From NCBI GenBank assembly GCA_003670925.1, contig QWQG01000149.1, positions 1-53,085 of the forward strand: a DNA stretch of 53,085 nt. The letters are read 5' to 3'. A program made the position numbers and the translations under genes. The notes under the pieces are model-generated. The model had not been told where the DNA came from. It saw only the letters and a program-made list of their open reading frames with translations, and made no database searches. Positions 944 through 39,685 of the stretch are shown piece after piece; within the stretch, counting starts at the first letter, position 1, and the number at the start of each line of letters is the position of its first letter. Origin of the DNA: Planctomycetota bacterium. Lineage in GTDB: Bacteria; Planctomycetota; Planctomycetia; Planctomycetales; Planctomycetaceae.

Positions 944-1117
944 ATGAATTTCTATCTGACGCCAATCGCTTATCTCGACCCAGGGACCGGCAGCATGTTG
1001 CTTCAGGCAATCGTGGGTGGGAGCGCCGGATTGTTTGTCTTTGTGCGCCACCTCTGGCGATCCTTTCGTTATGCTGAGCAGACAAAAGCGGGTGACACGA
1101 CTCAGGAAACCAATTGA
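944..1117 (+). CDS. Small one-helix membrane protein with YLDPGTGSMLLQ motif
   Basis: A 57-residue protein starting at ATG 944. The frame is also open from a TTG at 899, but the ATG gives the compact form. It begins with a short N-terminus, then the motif YLDPGTGSMLLQ, then one hydrophobic segment (about residues 20-36) and a basic, arginine-rich tail. Small proteins with this LDPGTGSMLLQ motif are, from memory, widespread and often sit beside sulfatase-like and methyltransferase genes, as here. The stop lies 9 bases before the likely start of the methyltransferase, which suggests co-transcription. The function is unknown; a membrane adaptor or subunit for the next two enzymes is an inference only. 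Confidence 0.75.
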   Translation: MNFYLTPIAYLDPGTGSMLLQAIVGGSAGLFVFVRHLWRSFRYAEQTKAGDTTQETN

Positions 1118-1126
1118 TCGTCTCGT

Positions 1127-1207
1127 ATGCCGCTAACTCCCTTACCGATGTTTGAACATGGATCGTTTCGAGATCGATCTTCGCGTATTTTCCTGAGGCA
1201 GGGTTAG
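1127..1207 (+). other. Likely true 5' end of the methyltransferase gene, closed by in-frame TAG
   Basis: Reading from ATG 1127 (or ATG 1148) in the frame of the methyltransferase gives MFEHGSFRDRSSRIFLRQG, then TAG at 1205-1207, then VFRALGYGG and the rest of the protein. The segment before the stop has the look of the usual N-terminus of this family (a SFRDPSGRVF-like stretch followed by VYR). ATG 1127 lies 9 bases after the stop of the small upstream gene. The TAG therefore appears to interrupt a once continuous gene. A sequencing error is the main alternative. Confidence 0.6.
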
Positions 1208-2545
1208 GTGTTTCGCGCCTTGGGGTATGGCGGCCTGCAGGATTGGGAAACGGTTTCGAAAAAGTCGTTCCTGCAGACTGGAATGCAAACTGGTTTCATT
1301 GTGCAGACCGAAACTGTTGCAACCCCCACTCTCCCGAACATTGGTTTTGACTGTGCCGCAGTGTTGCAGCATACGGCCATTCCTATCATCACATGGCCGT
1401 TTGATTGGTCATTCAACATGTTGCGTGCAGCGGCATTACTCACATTGGATTTGCTAGAACAAGCGTTGGAAGACAATGCAATTTTGAAAGATGCCACGCC
1501 ATACAATGTTCAGTTTGTCGGATCATGTCCGGTTTTTATTGACACAAGTTCTTTTGTGCCATTTCAGCCCGGTCAGATTTGGGCTGGCTATCGACAATTT
1601 TGCCAAATGTTCCTGTATCCCCTGATGCTCCAATGTTGGAAAAATGTAGATTTCCAACCGTGGCTCCGCGGTTCCTTAGAAGGGATCGCCCCGCAGGATT
1701 TCTCGTCGTTACTCGGTCTGCGGGATTTTTTCCGCCGCGGGGCATTTTCACACGTCTGGCTTCATGCGCGGCTACAGACTCCACGGATGATTCAGCCAAA
1801 AGTTGCCGATTCCATGAAGTCGAGCGGATTCAGTCGCTTTATGATCGTCAACAATGTGCGAGGATTGCGACGAATTGTGGAAGGGTTATCCTGGAAACCG
1901 AGGACATCTGCGTGGTCCGATTACGACAACACGGCGGAGCCTGTACAACGCGATGCGGCTGCGAAGGAAAAGTTCGTTGAGGATGTCTGTCAGTCGAAAT
2001 TTTGGCCATTGAAGACCTGGAAAACTGTCTGGGACCTAGGTTGCAACCAAGGACGCTATTCTCGTTTGGCGGCCAAGTACGCGGAAACAGTGCTCGCCAT
2101 TGATTCAGATCACCTGACTGTCGATCGCTTGTTTGTCGCATTAAACGCTGAACGCAATCGCACGATCATCCCCTTAGTCGGCAACCTCGCTGACCCTTCG
2201 CCGTCGCTCGGGTGGCGATTGCAGGAACGTCGGTCCCTAGAGCATCGATCGAAACCAGATCTCGTCTTCTGTCTTGCGTTAATTCATCACCTAGTGATAG
2301 GCTGCAATCTGCTGCTCGCTGATGTCATCGACTGGCTAGCATCATTGAAGGCGACAGTGGTATTCGAATACGTGGACCGTGCAGACGTTCAAGTGCAGCA
2401 ATTGCTGTCAAATCGTGAAGATGTATTCTCCGACTACAACGGGGAGGCGTTTCGTGCCCACATCAATCGAGCGTTTGTCGTGGTGCGGGAACAATCGCTA
2501 CTAGGCGGGACGCGAACATTGCTGTGGCTGCAACCAAAAGACTGA
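1208..2545 (+). CDS. NoeA-like SAM-dependent methyltransferase (N-terminus lost to TAG)
   Basis: The open part begins at GTG 1208, directly after an in-frame TAG, and encodes 445 residues. The N-terminal half carries the family-specific blocks WPFDWSFNMLRAAALLTL, LKDATPYNVQF, FIDTSSF and WAGYRQFCQMFLYPL. This is the region seen in proteins annotated as class I SAM methyltransferases or nodulation protein NoeA. The C-terminal half has a Rossmann motif I (VWDLGCNQGRYSRLAA, near residues 275-290), an acidic motif II (VLAIDSD) and a later LIHHLV segment. If translated from GTG, the protein lacks only about 20-27 conserved N-terminal residues, so it might still fold. A weak GAGG lies 11 bases upstream of the GTG. 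The substrate is unknown; the neighbours suggest a surface polymer. Confidence 0.75.
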   Translation: MFRALGYGGLQDWETVSKKSFLQTGMQTGFIVQTETVATPTLPNIGFDCAAVLQHTAIPIITWPFDWSFNMLRAAALLTLDLLEQALEDNAILKDATPYNVQFVGSCPVFIDTSSFVPFQPGQIWAGYRQFCQMFLYPLMLQCWKNVDFQPWLRGSLEGIAPQDFSSLLGLRDFFRRGAFSHVWLHARLQTPRMIQPKVADSMKSSGFSRFMIVNNVRGLRRIVEGLSWKPRTSAWSDYDNTAEPVQRDAAAKEKFVEDVCQSKFWPLKTWKTVWDLGCNQGRYSRLAAKYAETVLAIDSDHLTVDRLFVALNAERNRTIIPLVGNLADPSPSLGWRLQERRSLEHRSKPDLVFCLALIHHLVIGCNLLLADVIDWLASLKATVVFEYVDRADVQVQQLLSNREDVFSDYNGEAFRAHINRAFVVVREQSLLGGTRTLLWLQPKD

Positions 2546-2656
2546 TGTGCGTTTTAGGCCAGCCGGGGATAACAGCAAGGGGAACATTTCCTGCCGCTCG
2601 TGTAACGGTCGATTCCCCTCCTTGGCTGTATTCGGCGCAGGCCATGAATTCGACAG

Positions 2657-4825
2657 ATGATGGAAATTGATCTCGGCATGTTATCCTCCGCCACGAACGG
2701 CAATTCACGAACGCTTCGTACCTGCTTTCTGCAGATAGGAACGCTGAATGCATTTGCGGTCGCCCAGCCTATTTTTGATCGCATGATTTCTAATCCGCAG
2801 TATCTACGACTGGAAGGCTATTCCGGGTTTGCGATCATTTTCGTGGTGAGCATGATCTTACTCGCGATTCCGCTCATGGTCACGGCGAGCGTTGCCACAC
2901 TGCGATTGGTGAAACTTCCCAAACTTGCGGCTGCTATTTTTTCCATAACTGGCACGTTGCTCGCGGCATTAGTGATCAATATTGCTTTTCGCTGGCTCCA
3001 GTGGAGGTTCAACCTTCGCACCGCTGGCGTCCCGGACATGTTTCTTGCCTCGCTGAGTCTGCCCCTCGCAGTTGGGTGTGCGTGGGTTTATGGCCGTCTG
3101 AACTGGCCTAGGCAAATCCTTAATCTCGCGGCAATTGGAATCGTCTTGTTTCCTCTCAATCTGCTTTCAACTCCGGCGATGCGCGCGGAACTGCTGGGTA
3201 TTCAAGTAAAGAAGTCAATCGACCTCCGTGCTGACAATCCGGTGCCCATCGTTATGATTGTTTTTGACGGATTGTGCAGCATGGCACTGCTGAACGAGAG
3301 GCATGAAATCGACGCTGTTCGCTATCCTTCGTTTGCGCGGCTTGCCAACCAAAGTACGTTCTATCGCAACGCGACCTCGGTGCATTCTCGGACTGCACAT
3401 GCGTTGCCGGCGATTCTGACGGGACAACTACCCCGACCTCAAGGCGTCAGTCCCATTGAAAACGAATACCCCGCGAATTTGTTTCGCCTCATTCATGACA
3501 CGGAGCAGTACGATCTGACCGTATTTGAACCGGTGACCTTTCTGTGTCCGACGGAACTACGTCAGCTTGATCAGACAATGTTGTTTACAGAGCAGGTAAC
3601 GCGCCTGACTGACATGCTGCTCCGCGTCTACGTTGCAACCACAGTTCCGGCGGACTTCGACGTTTTTCAGCATCTGATCCCCAAAGTATGGTTTGGATTT
3701 CCGTTAGACGAAAGCGGTTGGCATCGCCCCGCAAAAGGCCTCGTGCGTTACTCGTGGGATCAGGGACAGGATGTGCAGGCTGATCACTTCACAAGAACAT
3801 TGAAACCAACCGAAAAGCCGGGGTTTCATTTTTTGCATTTAGTCATTCCACATGATCCTTGGTGTTATCTACCGTCAGGAAAGTCATATCTACCCAATAG
3901 TGGAATTGAAGAATTGTCCCTCGGCACGCATGGCTCAGGCGGTGCGGAATGGGGGAACGATGAACTGTTTGTCAATCTTGGTTGGCAACGTTACCTGTTG
4001 CAACTGCAATTTGCGGATCGATGTCTCGGAAAGATCCTCGACCAGTTGGAAGTCACTGGCGAATTCAATCGGTCACTGCTGGTCGTTGTGGCAGACCATG
4101 GTATGGCGTTTGTGGCTGGGCAGGACCGCAGAACGCCCGCCAATGAGACGCTGGCGGATCTGATGTCAGTGCCCCTTTTTATCAAGACTCCTCAGCAATC
4201 CAGCGGTCCTACAACTGATCGTAGCGTCGAAACAATTGATGTGCTGCCGACAATTGCCGACGTCATTCAGATGCCACTGGCTAGTGTTGTCGACGGTGCG
4301 TCGCTCATTGATGAAAACGTTGCCGCACGACCTCGCAAGACGATGCACTTTGACTACGACCAAGTGACCGTAATGAATCCCGAGTTTCCTCAGCGGTTCA
4401 ATTATGTCACGCGGATGCTGGCGGTATTTGGTTCGGGTAGCGATAACGATCGCATGTGGAAGTTAGACACGATTCCAGCGCTTGTCGGCATCGACCTCGC
4501 CGCGTGCGACGTTGGTGTTGGCTCCCGCTGGACATGCCGCCTGATTCGTGGCGGGGAAAAAATGGAGCCCACGCATGCCGCCTTCGTACCGTGCTATTTT
4601 TTGGGGCGGCTTGTAGGCCCGAAGATGACCCAACCGGTGGAGATCGCAATTGCTCTGAATGGGCGGATCGAATGCACTACTCGTACCTGTTTGAATGCTG
4701 CGGCCTCTCATGAATGGACAGCCCTGCTGCGGGATGATTTGTTCCAGACGGGACTGAACAAACTGCAGTTTTACGAAGTGGAGCAGACAGCTGACGGCTT
4801 TCGGTTGCATGACATCGCTTACTAA
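2657..4825 (+). CDS. Membrane-anchored sulfatase/alkaline-phosphatase-fold hydrolase or transferase
   Basis: A 722-residue protein with about four hydrophobic segments in the first 175 residues and a large alkaline-phosphatase-superfamily domain after them. The domain begins with VPIVMIVFDGLCSM (metal-binding Asp) and continues with a region where the nucleophile is expected, around residues 235-250 (SVHSRTAHALPAILTG, with Ser and Thr candidates). It also shows HDPW and the metal-binding VVADHGMAF. This arrangement resembles sulfatases and lipoteichoic-acid-synthase or phosphoglycerol-transferase-like enzymes; sequence alone does not separate them. There is no CxPxR sulfatase signature, so it is probably not a formylglycine sulfatase. 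It starts at ATG 2657, 111 bases after the methyltransferase, in the same direction. Confidence 0.75.
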   Translation: MMEIDLGMLSSATNGNSRTLRTCFLQIGTLNAFAVAQPIFDRMISNPQYLRLEGYSGFAIIFVVSMILLAIPLMVTASVATLRLVKLPKLAAAIFSITGTLLAALVINIAFRWLQWRFNLRTAGVPDMFLASLSLPLAVGCAWVYGRLNWPRQILNLAAIGIVLFPLNLLSTPAMRAELLGIQVKKSIDLRADNPVPIVMIVFDGLCSMALLNERHEIDAVRYPSFARLANQSTFYRNATSVHSRTAHALPAILTGQLPRPQGVSPIENEYPANLFRLIHDTEQYDLTVFEPVTFLCPTELRQLDQTMLFTEQVTRLTDMLLRVYVATTVPADFDVFQHLIPKVWFGFPLDESGWHRPAKGLVRYSWDQGQDVQADHFTRTLKPTEKPGFHFLHLVIPHDPWCYLPSGKSYLPNSGIEELSLGTHGSGGAEWGNDELFVNLGWQRYLLQLQFADRCLGKILDQLEVTGEFNRSLLVVVADHGMAFVAGQDRRTPANETLADLMSVPLFIKTPQQSSGPTTDRSVETIDVLPTIADVIQMPLASVVDGASLIDENVAARPRKTMHFDYDQVTVMNPEFPQRFNYVTRMLAVFGSGSDNDRMWKLDTIPALVGIDLAACDVGVGSRWTCRLIRGGEKMEPTHAAFVPCYFLGRLVGPKMTQPVEIAIALNGRIECTTRTCLNAAASHEWTALLRDDLFQTGLNKLQFYEVEQTADGFRLHDIAY

Positions 4826-5015
4826 GTCGCTCGCGAAACTCACGACACGCCATTGGCCGCTAAAATGTTTCAGCCCATGGCGCGCGTGTTGGCAATCACA
4901 TCTGGAGATGCCTTATCAAAACATTTCGCACGAATCTGTTTGCCTTGGCTAGTGCCTACCGCCAAGTTAAAAGTTTGCTAGCCGGCGGGATTCCCTCATG
5001 GCTATTCAGCGAACA

Positions 5016-18548: not shown

Positions 18549-21500
18549 CTACTCACCGGAAGTACTAGGTCGGGGGGGGGCAACTGGTGGCGGATCAGGC
18601 TCGCCGGGAAAATCGTAGGGCTCAAAATCTGAAATCATGTATTCGCTGATAAACACCTCAGTCTGATCATTTAGCATCGCCAGATAGGCTACCGACAACT
18701 GGCGATAGTTGGACTCACCGCATTGAGTGATCACGGCCTTGAAGAATGACTGGGCCGATTCGATGTTTGCTTCTTCAAGGCGAATCAGAGCGAGCAGAAA
18801 CAATACTTCAGCACGCGATGCCGGCAACGCTGACATCCCGACACTCAACTCACTCAGATGGCTCGTCGGCCACACAGGAATCGGGCTATTCATCATGGTG
18901 TTTACATCGGCCACGAAAGGCAACGACATTAGGGATCGCATATACGGTTCTTGCATGGCCATCACTTGATCGAGATCCTTTAACTGTGAGGTCCAAGTGT
19001 CATAAGCTGAAGTCAGGTCACTGATAGCCAATTGCGTCATAGCACTCGCAAACTGCCAATCCGTACCTGCTATTTGTTCAGGTTGCTGACGTGCCTGTTC
19101 GGCCATCATTGCCAGTGTCTGATGAGCTTCCTCGAGGCGACCAGCTTCAAGCATCAACTGTCCACGATTGATTATCCCGCGCGGATCTCGATTCACGGAT
19201 TCTCGATCGTCGTCGAGGAGTCTTAAAGCAGCAAGGCCAAATCCGGTGTTGTCAATCTGGAACGCAAGATTCACCAACTGGCTGACTCGGTCTTCTTCTA
19301 CTTCAGAGGGCACTTGGGTTTCAAGGAATTCCTGCAAACGCTTTTCATTGTCACGAATTCTGTCGCGAGAGTCGCGTCGGAATCCCTGTTGCTCAGAAAG
19401 TAGAGCCTGAATTTGTGGGTCAGGAGAATCTAGATATTCGTCTTCCAACAGCGGCAGCAGACGATCAATGGCCTCTCCGGCTAAGTCAATCCGATTCTGC
19501 TGACGATAGAGCGAAAGTAATTCTCCCCAAGCCACTTTATCGTTCGGCTCAGTCACCAGTGATTGTCTGTAGGCCATGACTGCTTGAAGGTAACGCATCC
19601 GCTTGAAGCGAGTTCCTAGCGACGGGCCTCCGAGCATTTGTTCCAGCTCTGCCAGACGGGTGTAGGAAAATCCCAGCAAGCGATAGGCGTTTGCATCATT
19701 CGGAGAGCGATCCAAGGCAAGGTTCAACTGCCGAATGGCCAGATGCGACGTCGCGATGGTTGACATCGCCTCCTCCATTGACTGAGGCTGCAGACTAGCA
19801 AGCGTGGAATAATTTATTGCTAAACGCATATTTTCATCGATTGTAGGACGAGTGCGATACACATATTTTTCATAAAAATTTGGCGCACGGGCAAATTCTC
19901 GTAACGTCGATGGGGCAATTGCGGCGCTGCGAAACGCTTTGTCAGTCCAATTGGGGGCGAGGGCTGCACGTTCCGCAGCGGGTGTTGCGGGACTGATACG
20001 TTTTAGGATGGCCGCCGACGCTTCAATACTAATCGGAACCCACTGCTGCGTTTGCGTCAGGTTGAATACGGAGCGAAAGTCGGGCGGCCCGGGCGGTGCC
20101 AATCGGATGATCGCGTGAGTGATGCGAAATTCTGCCAAAGTTTCCTCAGACACTCCCATCTTGGCATTCATTAACTCTTCGTACTTCTTTTGTTCGGCCT
20201 TATCTTGGGATTTATCTTCTGGTGGCGGGGTCGGCTGAAAGAGTGTCGTCAACAGGATGGAATGTTTTGCAAAGACAGACTTAGCCAGCTTTGGTTGTTC
20301 ATTCGGGTCACCGGGACGACCAAACGGCAGAATTCGACTGTCGATAAAACTTTTGCGTCCATTCCAGATCAACATATCGCCTTGGTCAAGACGTGTGTGC
20401 AGAATGTTCGCTGCCGGATCAAGATCCTTGATTTGTGCCGCGAAAGTATCCATTGTCGCGCGTGTATCGCTATCAAATCCCCAGCCCAAGGCCGCAGCTC
20501 CCGGAAGTCGGGATGCCACAATGCAAAATGCCAATCCAGCTAAAGCCAAGACCGTGACGGCGCGCCCGCCTCGCGAAAACAGGAGCTCCTTTGTATCCAA
20601 AGTGTACTGTTGATTGAATCCGCGACGATACCAGTCTTGAGCTGAAATTCCGGCAACGACTGCGGCCACGATGGCCGCCGCCGGAAGCTCGTGAGCTGCC
20701 AGCAGCGACAGTCCGGTCACACCCAGTAGGACACACAGGAATCCTAGATCACGTCGAGTTCGCGCTAACAATAGTACAACAAATCCCAACAACAGCAGAG
20801 CGAGGCCAGCAATCTGAGAATGGTCGAACAGCCGAATTGCACTTGGGTTTAACACAGAATAGTAATCGACGCGTCCGTCGAAACTGGTGGCTGCTGCAGG
20901 AATGTCCACCCGACGCTGCGCCTTCATGGCCGGATACTCGATCGAATACATCGTGACCGGCCCTAACAGTGAGTTGCCAGGAAACGGATTCACTAACAAC
21001 GCAACCACACTCAAACCGGCAATTAACCACGGAGTAGAACTCTCAGGTTCGATGCTGGCTGCCGATTTTCTGGCCGCAATGCGCTGACGGACAAATTCCC
21101 CAAATATGTACAAAACTACCACAAACGCCCCGATCCACGCGCGTGGATCAAAGTTACACCATACGGCAATTAACAACGGCAACTTCCATGTCAGCCCAGA
21201 AGCTATTCCCAGCCGATGCTGGCTCAGCCAACGCATGGTAATCGTCATCCCCAGCATCGTCACAAGTTCCGGCAACGGCACGAAATCCGAGGAACAGGCC
21301 ACGATTGCAAACACCGCACAAATGCAATTCCACCAGGTCGGCACACCACGAATTGAAATCTGTGTGAGCAGGTACGCAACCAGCCCGGCAATCGCCACTT
21401 TGAGCAAAGTGAGTGCTTTCTCACCTCCTGCTGACCAGCAGAGACTCACCACATGATCGAAGAGCCAACTGACGTTGGGAGAAGGTTTATCGGCTGCTGT

Positions 21501-37855: not shown

Positions 37856-39685
37856 ATGTGTGTGTTCTGTCGATGTGCCATTTTCATTTTTCTGATTGCC
37901 AGCTCAATTCTGTCTGTCGGCCAACGAGCGACAGCGTCTGCCCCGAAGGCACTGCATCCGATTTCAGTGACGGAAGCCAGCATCTTTGTCACGCGTTCAA
38001 AAGCTATTGTGCGGATTCAGATGTTTGCCGAGGATCTGATTTTGTTTCAGGGGCTTGAACCAAACGATCAGGACCGTATCTCACCGGAAGACCTCACACG
38101 CGGCTTGGCCGACCACCGGCAGTTTTTGTTGGAACGCGTGACTCTGCGTGACGCCAAAGGCGAACCAATCAAGGGAGAAGTCACCGATGTTAAGCCGTTC
38201 GTTATTCCGGTCGACGGAATCCTCAGCACCGACATGATGCTGCATACGGCAACGTACGAACTGGAGTTTTCATTTTCAGAGCCGCCTGAATTCCTGACAA
38301 TTCAACAGGATATGAGTGATGAGAACTTTATCATTCCCAGTGAGATGAAACTCACCGTGCATCAATCCGGCACGGCGTTAAATTATACCGAATCACTACT
38401 GCCCGGAGCTTCGACGTCTGTGCGTTTTGACTGGGAGCAGGGCATCACCGAAGATGCGTCAGACGCTGAATGGGAGACGTGGTTTTCCAAACAGCGTGAA
38501 GCGACGCTCGGAATCACCAGTTACAGCAGCGTCTATTCGTTCGTGTACATCGAGCCTAACGAAATTCGGCACGAAATTCTCATTCCCCTCGCGACACTGA
38601 AGACCATTTTGCCGGTGAAGAGTCGAGACGCGTCGTTTATTGAGATCGATGAGCAAGATCCCATTCGGGCTTTGATTCGGGATTGGCTGCGGGACGAAAA
38701 TCCAGTCACGATCAACGGGATCCGGGTGTTACCCGAGTTTTCTCGGATTGACTTTTACGGCCTTGATCTTCGCGATTTTGCCGCACAGGCGGCGGAGCAG
38801 AAAGTCAGCCTTGCCAGTGGCCGGATCGGCATCATTCTACGCTATCGAGCACCAGACGATGCCGTCCGTGAGACTACTATTACGTGGGAAAAATACTATT
38901 CAAAGATGAACAAGATTCAGTCCATTGTGATCTCGTATCCGGATCGAATCGACCGTTTTGAATTTTCAAAGCATAACAAGGCCGTCGACAATGTGCTCCA
39001 GTGGACATGCGATCCTACGGCCCTGCCGCAACCGATCAAACTCGTTCCCGCTGTCCTCGTTTCGCCACCGAAACTGATGATTCCCGTTGGCAGTCTGATC
39101 TGCTTGGCAATTGCGTTTGTCAGCCTGCGGATTTCGAAGACGTCCGTTCGTTTGGTGGTCAGCGGCGCAGCATTCATGCTGGCGATCGCAGGTTGGCGTT
39201 CTGCGGGTTTCGCCATCGAACATCCATGGCGGCGACCGCCAGAGTTGAGTGAAACGCAAGCGACTGAGATTTTTGAAAAACTGCATCAGGGTGTTTATCG
39301 TTCGCTGGATTTTGGGAGCGAGGATCGCGTTTACGACGTGCTCGCGACCAGCGTGGACGGCACCTTGCTGGAGAAACTCTATTTGCAGTTGCATCAAAGT
39401 CTGGAAATGCGAGAACAGAGTGGTGCCGTGGCCCGAATTCAGTCAATCAAATACGACAGTGGCAAACAGGCATCCCGGCCTTTGACCACGGTGCCGTGGC
39501 CTGGCTTTGAGTACAGTTCCACGTGGACCGTGGCAGGTACCGTCGAACACTGGGGACACATTCACGAACGCCAGAATCGCTTCGACGCAGTTTTTACGAT
39601 TGAACCACGCGATGGCAACTGGAAAATCACGCGGATGGATATTGCCAACCAACAACAGATCGCCGCAAAAACTCGCCTGCGATAG
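37856..39685 (+). CDS. Hypothetical secreted/membrane protein
   Basis: A 609-residue protein with a signal peptide (CRCAIFIFLIASSILSVGQ). Residues about 35-390 are beta-rich with no recognisable motif and would lie outside the cytoplasm. Two hydrophobic helices follow, near 400-445 (MIPVGSLICLAIAFVSL and VVSGAAFMLAIAGW). The last 150 residues (from HPWRRPPELSETQATEIF) form an alpha/beta domain with the ending NWKITRMDIANQQQI, reminiscent of an NTF2-like or SnoaL-like fold, which is a weak guess. No family is named. It starts at ATG 37856 and stands alone between the terminator and the DUF1805 gene, 116 bases upstream of the latter. Confidence 0.6.
   Translation: MCVFCRCAIFIFLIASSILSVGQRATASAPKALHPISVTEASIFVTRSKAIVRIQMFAEDLILFQGLEPNDQDRISPEDLTRGLADHRQFLLERVTLRDAKGEPIKGEVTDVKPFVIPVDGILSTDMMLHTATYELEFSFSEPPEFLTIQQDMSDENFIIPSEMKLTVHQSGTALNYTESLLPGASTSVRFDWEQGITEDASDAEWETWFSKQREATLGITSYSSVYSFVYIEPNEIRHEILIPLATLKTILPVKSRDASFIEIDEQDPIRALIRDWLRDENPVTINGIRVLPEFSRIDFYGLDLRDFAAQAAEQKVSLASGRIGIILRYRAPDDAVRETTITWEKYYSKMNKIQSIVISYPDRIDRFEFSKHNKAVDNVLQWTCDPTALPQPIKLVPAVLVSPPKLMIPVGSLICLAIAFVSLRISKTSVRLVVSGAAFMLAIAGWRSAGFAIEHPWRRPPELSETQATEIFEKLHQGVYRSLDFGSEDRVYDVLATSVDGTLLEKLYLQLHQSLEMREQSGAVARIQSIKYDSGKQASRPLTTVPWPGFEYSSTWTVAGTVEHWGHIHERQNRFDAVFTIEPRDGNWKITRMDIANQQQIAAKTRLR

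Follow-up and report, generated by a model that had tools for sequence, protein, structure and literature searches.

A window of 53,085 nucleotides (the whole stretch of DNA analysed here, from the draft genome of an uncultured planctomycete) carries a noeA-like gene whose frame is interrupted close to its start, and the question raised by this locus is whether the interrupting amber codon is decoded, bypassed, newly mutated, or a flaw of the assembly. The frame that opens at ATG 1127 meets a TAG at 1205–1207 (+ strand), codon 27 of the gene. A GTG at 1208–1210 directly abuts the stop, and from there the frame is open for 445 codons to a TGA at 2543–2545 (+). This layout had been described in an initial annotation, and both its coordinates and its open frames were confirmed. 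A six-frame search using the full-length protein of a neighbouring species as query recovered the gene at 1130–2542 (G000:C161) with 79% identity and one internal TAG; no internal stop was found in the gene in the other genomes of the genus by the same search. The gene is present as a single copy in the G000 assembly.

The interrupted gene and its family

The 26 codons that precede the stop (1127–1204, +; MPLTPLPMFEHGSFRDRSSRIFLRQG) aligned to homologues, a near-invariant SFRD block among them, and take in the strand that opens the first hairpin of a kinase-like N-lobe; by this alignment, the in-frame TAG is more than a chance occurrence. The remaining 445 codons of the putative kinase-methyltransferase and the TGA occupy 1208–2545 (+), with GTG 1208 as a possible restart. 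The initial annotation had taken the region before the TAG for the normal N-terminus of the family, unless homologues were found to begin at the equivalent of VFRALG; they begin earlier, and its reading holds. Nearly all homologous loci retain the upstream block as S(F/Y/W)RD. Residues S13, R15 and D16 (before the TAG) and R30, D122, N127 and D139 (after it) were invariant in 54 sequences. Automatic annotation would begin the protein at GTG 1208, and the near-invariant block would be lost.

Membership in a NoeA-like family, also suggested at the outset, was borne out by BLASTP to the annotated NoeA of Ensifer canadensis (E 8e-80, 36% identity over read-through residues 4–465, nearly the full length, with the SFRD block aligned) and by tblastn to the plasmid noeA gene (E 7e-61). 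The downstream protein had no Pfam family at E 0.01 and only weak methyltransferase matches in NCBIfam. Full-length NoeA homology and the expected N-terminal kinase-like and C-terminal class I methyltransferase domains were both found; the SxRD block does not lie in one uninterrupted frame with them, being separated by the TAG at codon 27. Judged by homology, the interrupted gene appears to be a NoeA-type kinase-methyltransferase, in a copy that is broken or possibly misassembled.

An AlphaFold model was built with the TAG read as glutamine (a modelling choice) and reached a pLDDT of 92. Because methyltransferase matches crowded the fold search with the entire protein, a separate model and search were made for the N-terminal part; the Foldseek matches listed for residues 1–240 were kinases (best Z 9.8 over 185 residues), and residues 259–472 adopted a class I methyltransferase fold (Z ~17). 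The initial label of a split “methyltransferase N-terminus” needs refining in one respect, the interrupted part being a kinase-like N-lobe, with the methyltransferase domain at about 259–472. In the model, the first hairpin is formed by strands 19–24 and 27–32, and the TAG corresponds to residue 27, the first after the turn. NoeA homologues have been described as kinase-methyltransferases in a published survey, in which an arginine of the family was proposed as an ATP-site residue (PMC9758233); we infer that Arg30 is its equivalent.

Reading of TAG in the genome

Terminators were counted for 151 long open reading frames found in 303 kb of the genome (TGA 57, TAG 49, TAA 45). Beyond TAG, the next in-frame stop came at a median of 28 codons, against 19 for TAA and 21 for TGA, with no sign of coding beyond TAG. 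Release factor 1 is present as an open frame (prfA, TIGR00019, 461.5 bits against a cut-off of 423.25). No UAG-reading (CUA) tRNA was seen among the 36 tRNAs typed, a set that is incomplete (tRNA-Asn, for example, was not seen). No internal stop occurred in 144 domain matches from four large families of the same genome (15, 62, 26 and 41). These families served as the error control, since the stretches of two relatives that were compared had too few genes in common with this genome for that purpose.

Reassignment of TAG to an amino acid would account for the site at 1205–1207 and is favored by nothing beyond it. Against it stand the use of TAG to end 49 of the 151 long frames, with the next in-frame stop about as near as for TAA or TGA, the score of RF1 above its curated cut-off, and the 144 clean matches. 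Given the terminator use of TAG, reassignment is refuted for practical purposes, and the probability that we leave to it is negligible. The earlier judgment that genome-wide reassignment was unlikely is upheld, as are the three TAG stops on which it drew (449–451 and 39683–39685 on the + strand, 18549–18551 on the − strand), all of which are real.

Origin of the stop at codon 27

An alignment of homologues at the TAG, which had been proposed as a check, returned varied sense residues (R 38, E 18, G 9, Q 8, A 6, and others). A sense codon was found in 94 of 94 other homologous loci reaching the column (a few records are held in two collections, so that independent genomes are slightly fewer), and G000 is the sole genome with a stop. 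In the nearest relative, at about 80% identity, the codon is CAG, with 7 of 10 residues before and 8 of 10 after the TAG identical. Given this CAG, one C-to-T change explains the stop.

Ratios of dN/dS against the nearest relative were 0.11 for codons 1–26, 0.09 for codons 9–26 and 0.10 after the TAG, rough values given that synonymous sites are near saturation and only 26 codons precede the stop. With dN/dS near 0.1, the gene has been under selection before the TAG as well as after it. No second disabling change was found in the gene, and no further stop occurs across the 445 codons. An accelerated G000 branch was considered and rejected, as relative-rate counts with four outgroups (14 v 17, 17 v 15, 16 v 13 and 15 v 11) showed this copy evolving no faster than its sister. 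In a neutral simulation of substitutions only, at 5% divergence, the frame from codon 28 on had still acquired no stop in 5% of runs. Since the frame rarely stays free of stops under such conditions, the stop is young, if real; it is either recent or else an assembly error.

A single C-to-T nonsense substitution (CAG to TAG at codon 27) in an otherwise intact NoeA-type gene, whether a true mutation or a population variant, is the explanation that we consider probable, with some reserve. Of the four options offered by the initial annotation, a fresh nonsense mutation was the best supported, given the CAG of the relative, the uniqueness of the stop, and selection on both sides of it. The ancestral codon would have been the glutamine codon of the nearest relative, and the T at 1205 would be real in the DNA of the organism.

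The main rival is an assembly error, in which a consensus error or a minor-strain base was recorded and the gene is intact in the living population. G000 is a fragmented draft of 259 contigs, available as consensus only and the one assembly of the species that was searched; as read from a draft consensus, the TAG base may be an error or minor variant. Consistent with such an origin, the gene has no other damage and shows normal selection, and Cooley and Wright traced many of the putative pseudogenes in public assemblies to errors of assembly, so that false pseudogenes commonly arise in this way (PMC11017572). The absence of internal stops in the 144 other domain matches, however, indicates that the assembly is not error-ridden, and the site lies 1.2 kb from the contig end, outside the repeated insertion sequence (which ends near 555). 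We regard this rival as clearly the less likely of the two, and still as one of real weight.

If the nonsense substitution is real, translation from ATG 1127 would end once 26 residues had been made, where the first beta-hairpin of the kinase-like domain turns, and little or no full-length enzyme would be made; a null or weak allele is most likely. A restart at GTG 1208, perhaps a weak one, may yield some product without residues 1–27; this product would be missing the first hairpin strand as well as the near-invariant SFRD block, and its kinase would probably be impaired. Some activity could survive through low-level misreading or restart, since many different residues are tolerated in this codon column.

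The stronger proposal, in which termination at the TAG and a new start at the adjoining GTG yield a working enzyme without residues 1–27, is mechanically possible. Termination-reinitiation over short distances is widespread in bacteria (PMC6728339), the GTG follows the stop directly, a weak Shine-Dalgarno-like GAGG (1195–1198, +) lies 9 nt before it, and Arg30, the presumed counterpart of the proposed ATP-site arginine (PMC9758233), would be retained. A comparable 4-mer nevertheless precedes 5.7% of random sites, and such an enzyme would lack S13, R15, D16 and strand 19–24. Selection in codons 1–26 is not relaxed, and none of the homologues examined surely lacks the N-terminal block by starting at the codon-28 point. 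A working restart enzyme is accordingly rated unlikely.

Readthrough of the TAG, by a near-cognate glutamine tRNA or a recoding signal, would give the full-length protein and would fit the similar selection up- and downstream and the position of the site at a hairpin turn that accepts many residues. We hold it to be very improbable, as the stop is conserved in no relative, the RNA around the site shows unremarkable folding (z −0.63), an Rfam search returned no element, and no CUA tRNA was among the 36 found; neither conservation nor RNA folding nor any known element supports programmed readthrough. We are just as doubtful of a maintained switch at the TAG-GTG junction, working by restart or as a leaky stop and splitting the NoeA-like protein into a leader of 26 residues and an enzyme with its own initiation, the first hairpin strand being absent from the kinase N-lobe of the latter.

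The locus is an ordinary gene, broken (or misread) probably very recently, and not the sign of an unusual genetic code. It mainly provides a clean negative, in which a single substitution, confined to one genome, accounts for an in-frame amber that could pass for recoding.

The cassette and known systems

The gene is the second of three. The first (944–1116, +; AYLDPGTGSMLLQ...) encodes a small conserved membrane-type protein, is intact up to its TGA at 1114–1116, has homologues in many loci and no Pfam match, and shares 46% identity over 39 amino acids with the small gene preceding noeA in Ensifer canadensis. Unnamed small proteins with the motif YLDPGTGSM(L/I/V/M)(L/V)Q directly precede the kinase-methyltransferase from planctomycetes to rhizobia (loci L002, L003, L004, L014, L091–L094, L096, L103, L104, L107, L112, L119 and L172:3098–3313). 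The third gene (2657–4825, +), in the NoeB position, encodes an intact sulfatase/alkaline-phosphatase-type membrane protein (PF00884, E 3.1e-17) that is 79% identical to its counterpart in the nearest relative (G001), with no internal stop, and weakly similar to NoeB (E 6e-6).

The cassette (944–4825) is collinear with that of G001, where the three-gene block has 76% DNA identity over 960–4827 and nothing outside it is common in the stretch compared; the neighbourhood there differs and, by eye, adjoins uppS- and cdsA-like genes. Judged from this collinearity, the cassette looks as if it moves as a unit. Known from rhizobial nodulation, it is, together with its small front protein, widespread in planctomycetes and beyond. 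One matching record (L076, CAMAXD010000367.1), labelled Candidatus Kuenenia stuttgartiensis, has the same match and length (6065) as contig G005:C367 of a member of the genus, which suggests that it is misnamed.

Positions 1–555 hold a truncated IS1634-family transposase at the contig end, with near-identical pieces at several other contig ends of G000, and this repeat probably broke the assembly there. The IS1634-family copy was rejected as a cause of the interruption, as 389 bases separate its end near 555 from the cassette, and it interrupts no cassette gene.

Among known systems, the nodL-noeA-noeB operon of Sinorhizobium/Ensifer has the same cassette order (small AYLDPGTGSM protein, noeA and sulfatase-like noeB, which follow nodL on the Ensifer canadensis plasmid). 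It differs in that nodL is present there and none was found adjoining the planctomycete gene, which has a planctomycete host, a NoeB-like neighbour of weak similarity, and a frame interrupted at codon 27. The Lani_1194-type kinase-methyltransferases (PMC9758233) likewise have a kinase fold followed by a class I methyltransferase, and R30, D122, N127 and D139 fit their R and D/N/D pattern, a kinship drawn through NoeA, which is named there as a Lani_1194 homologue. WbdD, the kinase-methyltransferase of E. coli O9a, aligns with the methyltransferase domain (Z 16.4, rmsd 2.9, 188 residues) and also joins a kinase to a methyltransferase, but its methyltransferase lies at the front of the chain (aligned range 10–222), whereas that of the planctomycete protein lies at the end. 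The nonsense-mutation pseudogenes of draft bacterial genomes likewise have one internal stop in a conserved gene that is intact elsewhere; the planctomycete gene differs from them in showing no other decay and in that its base may be an error.
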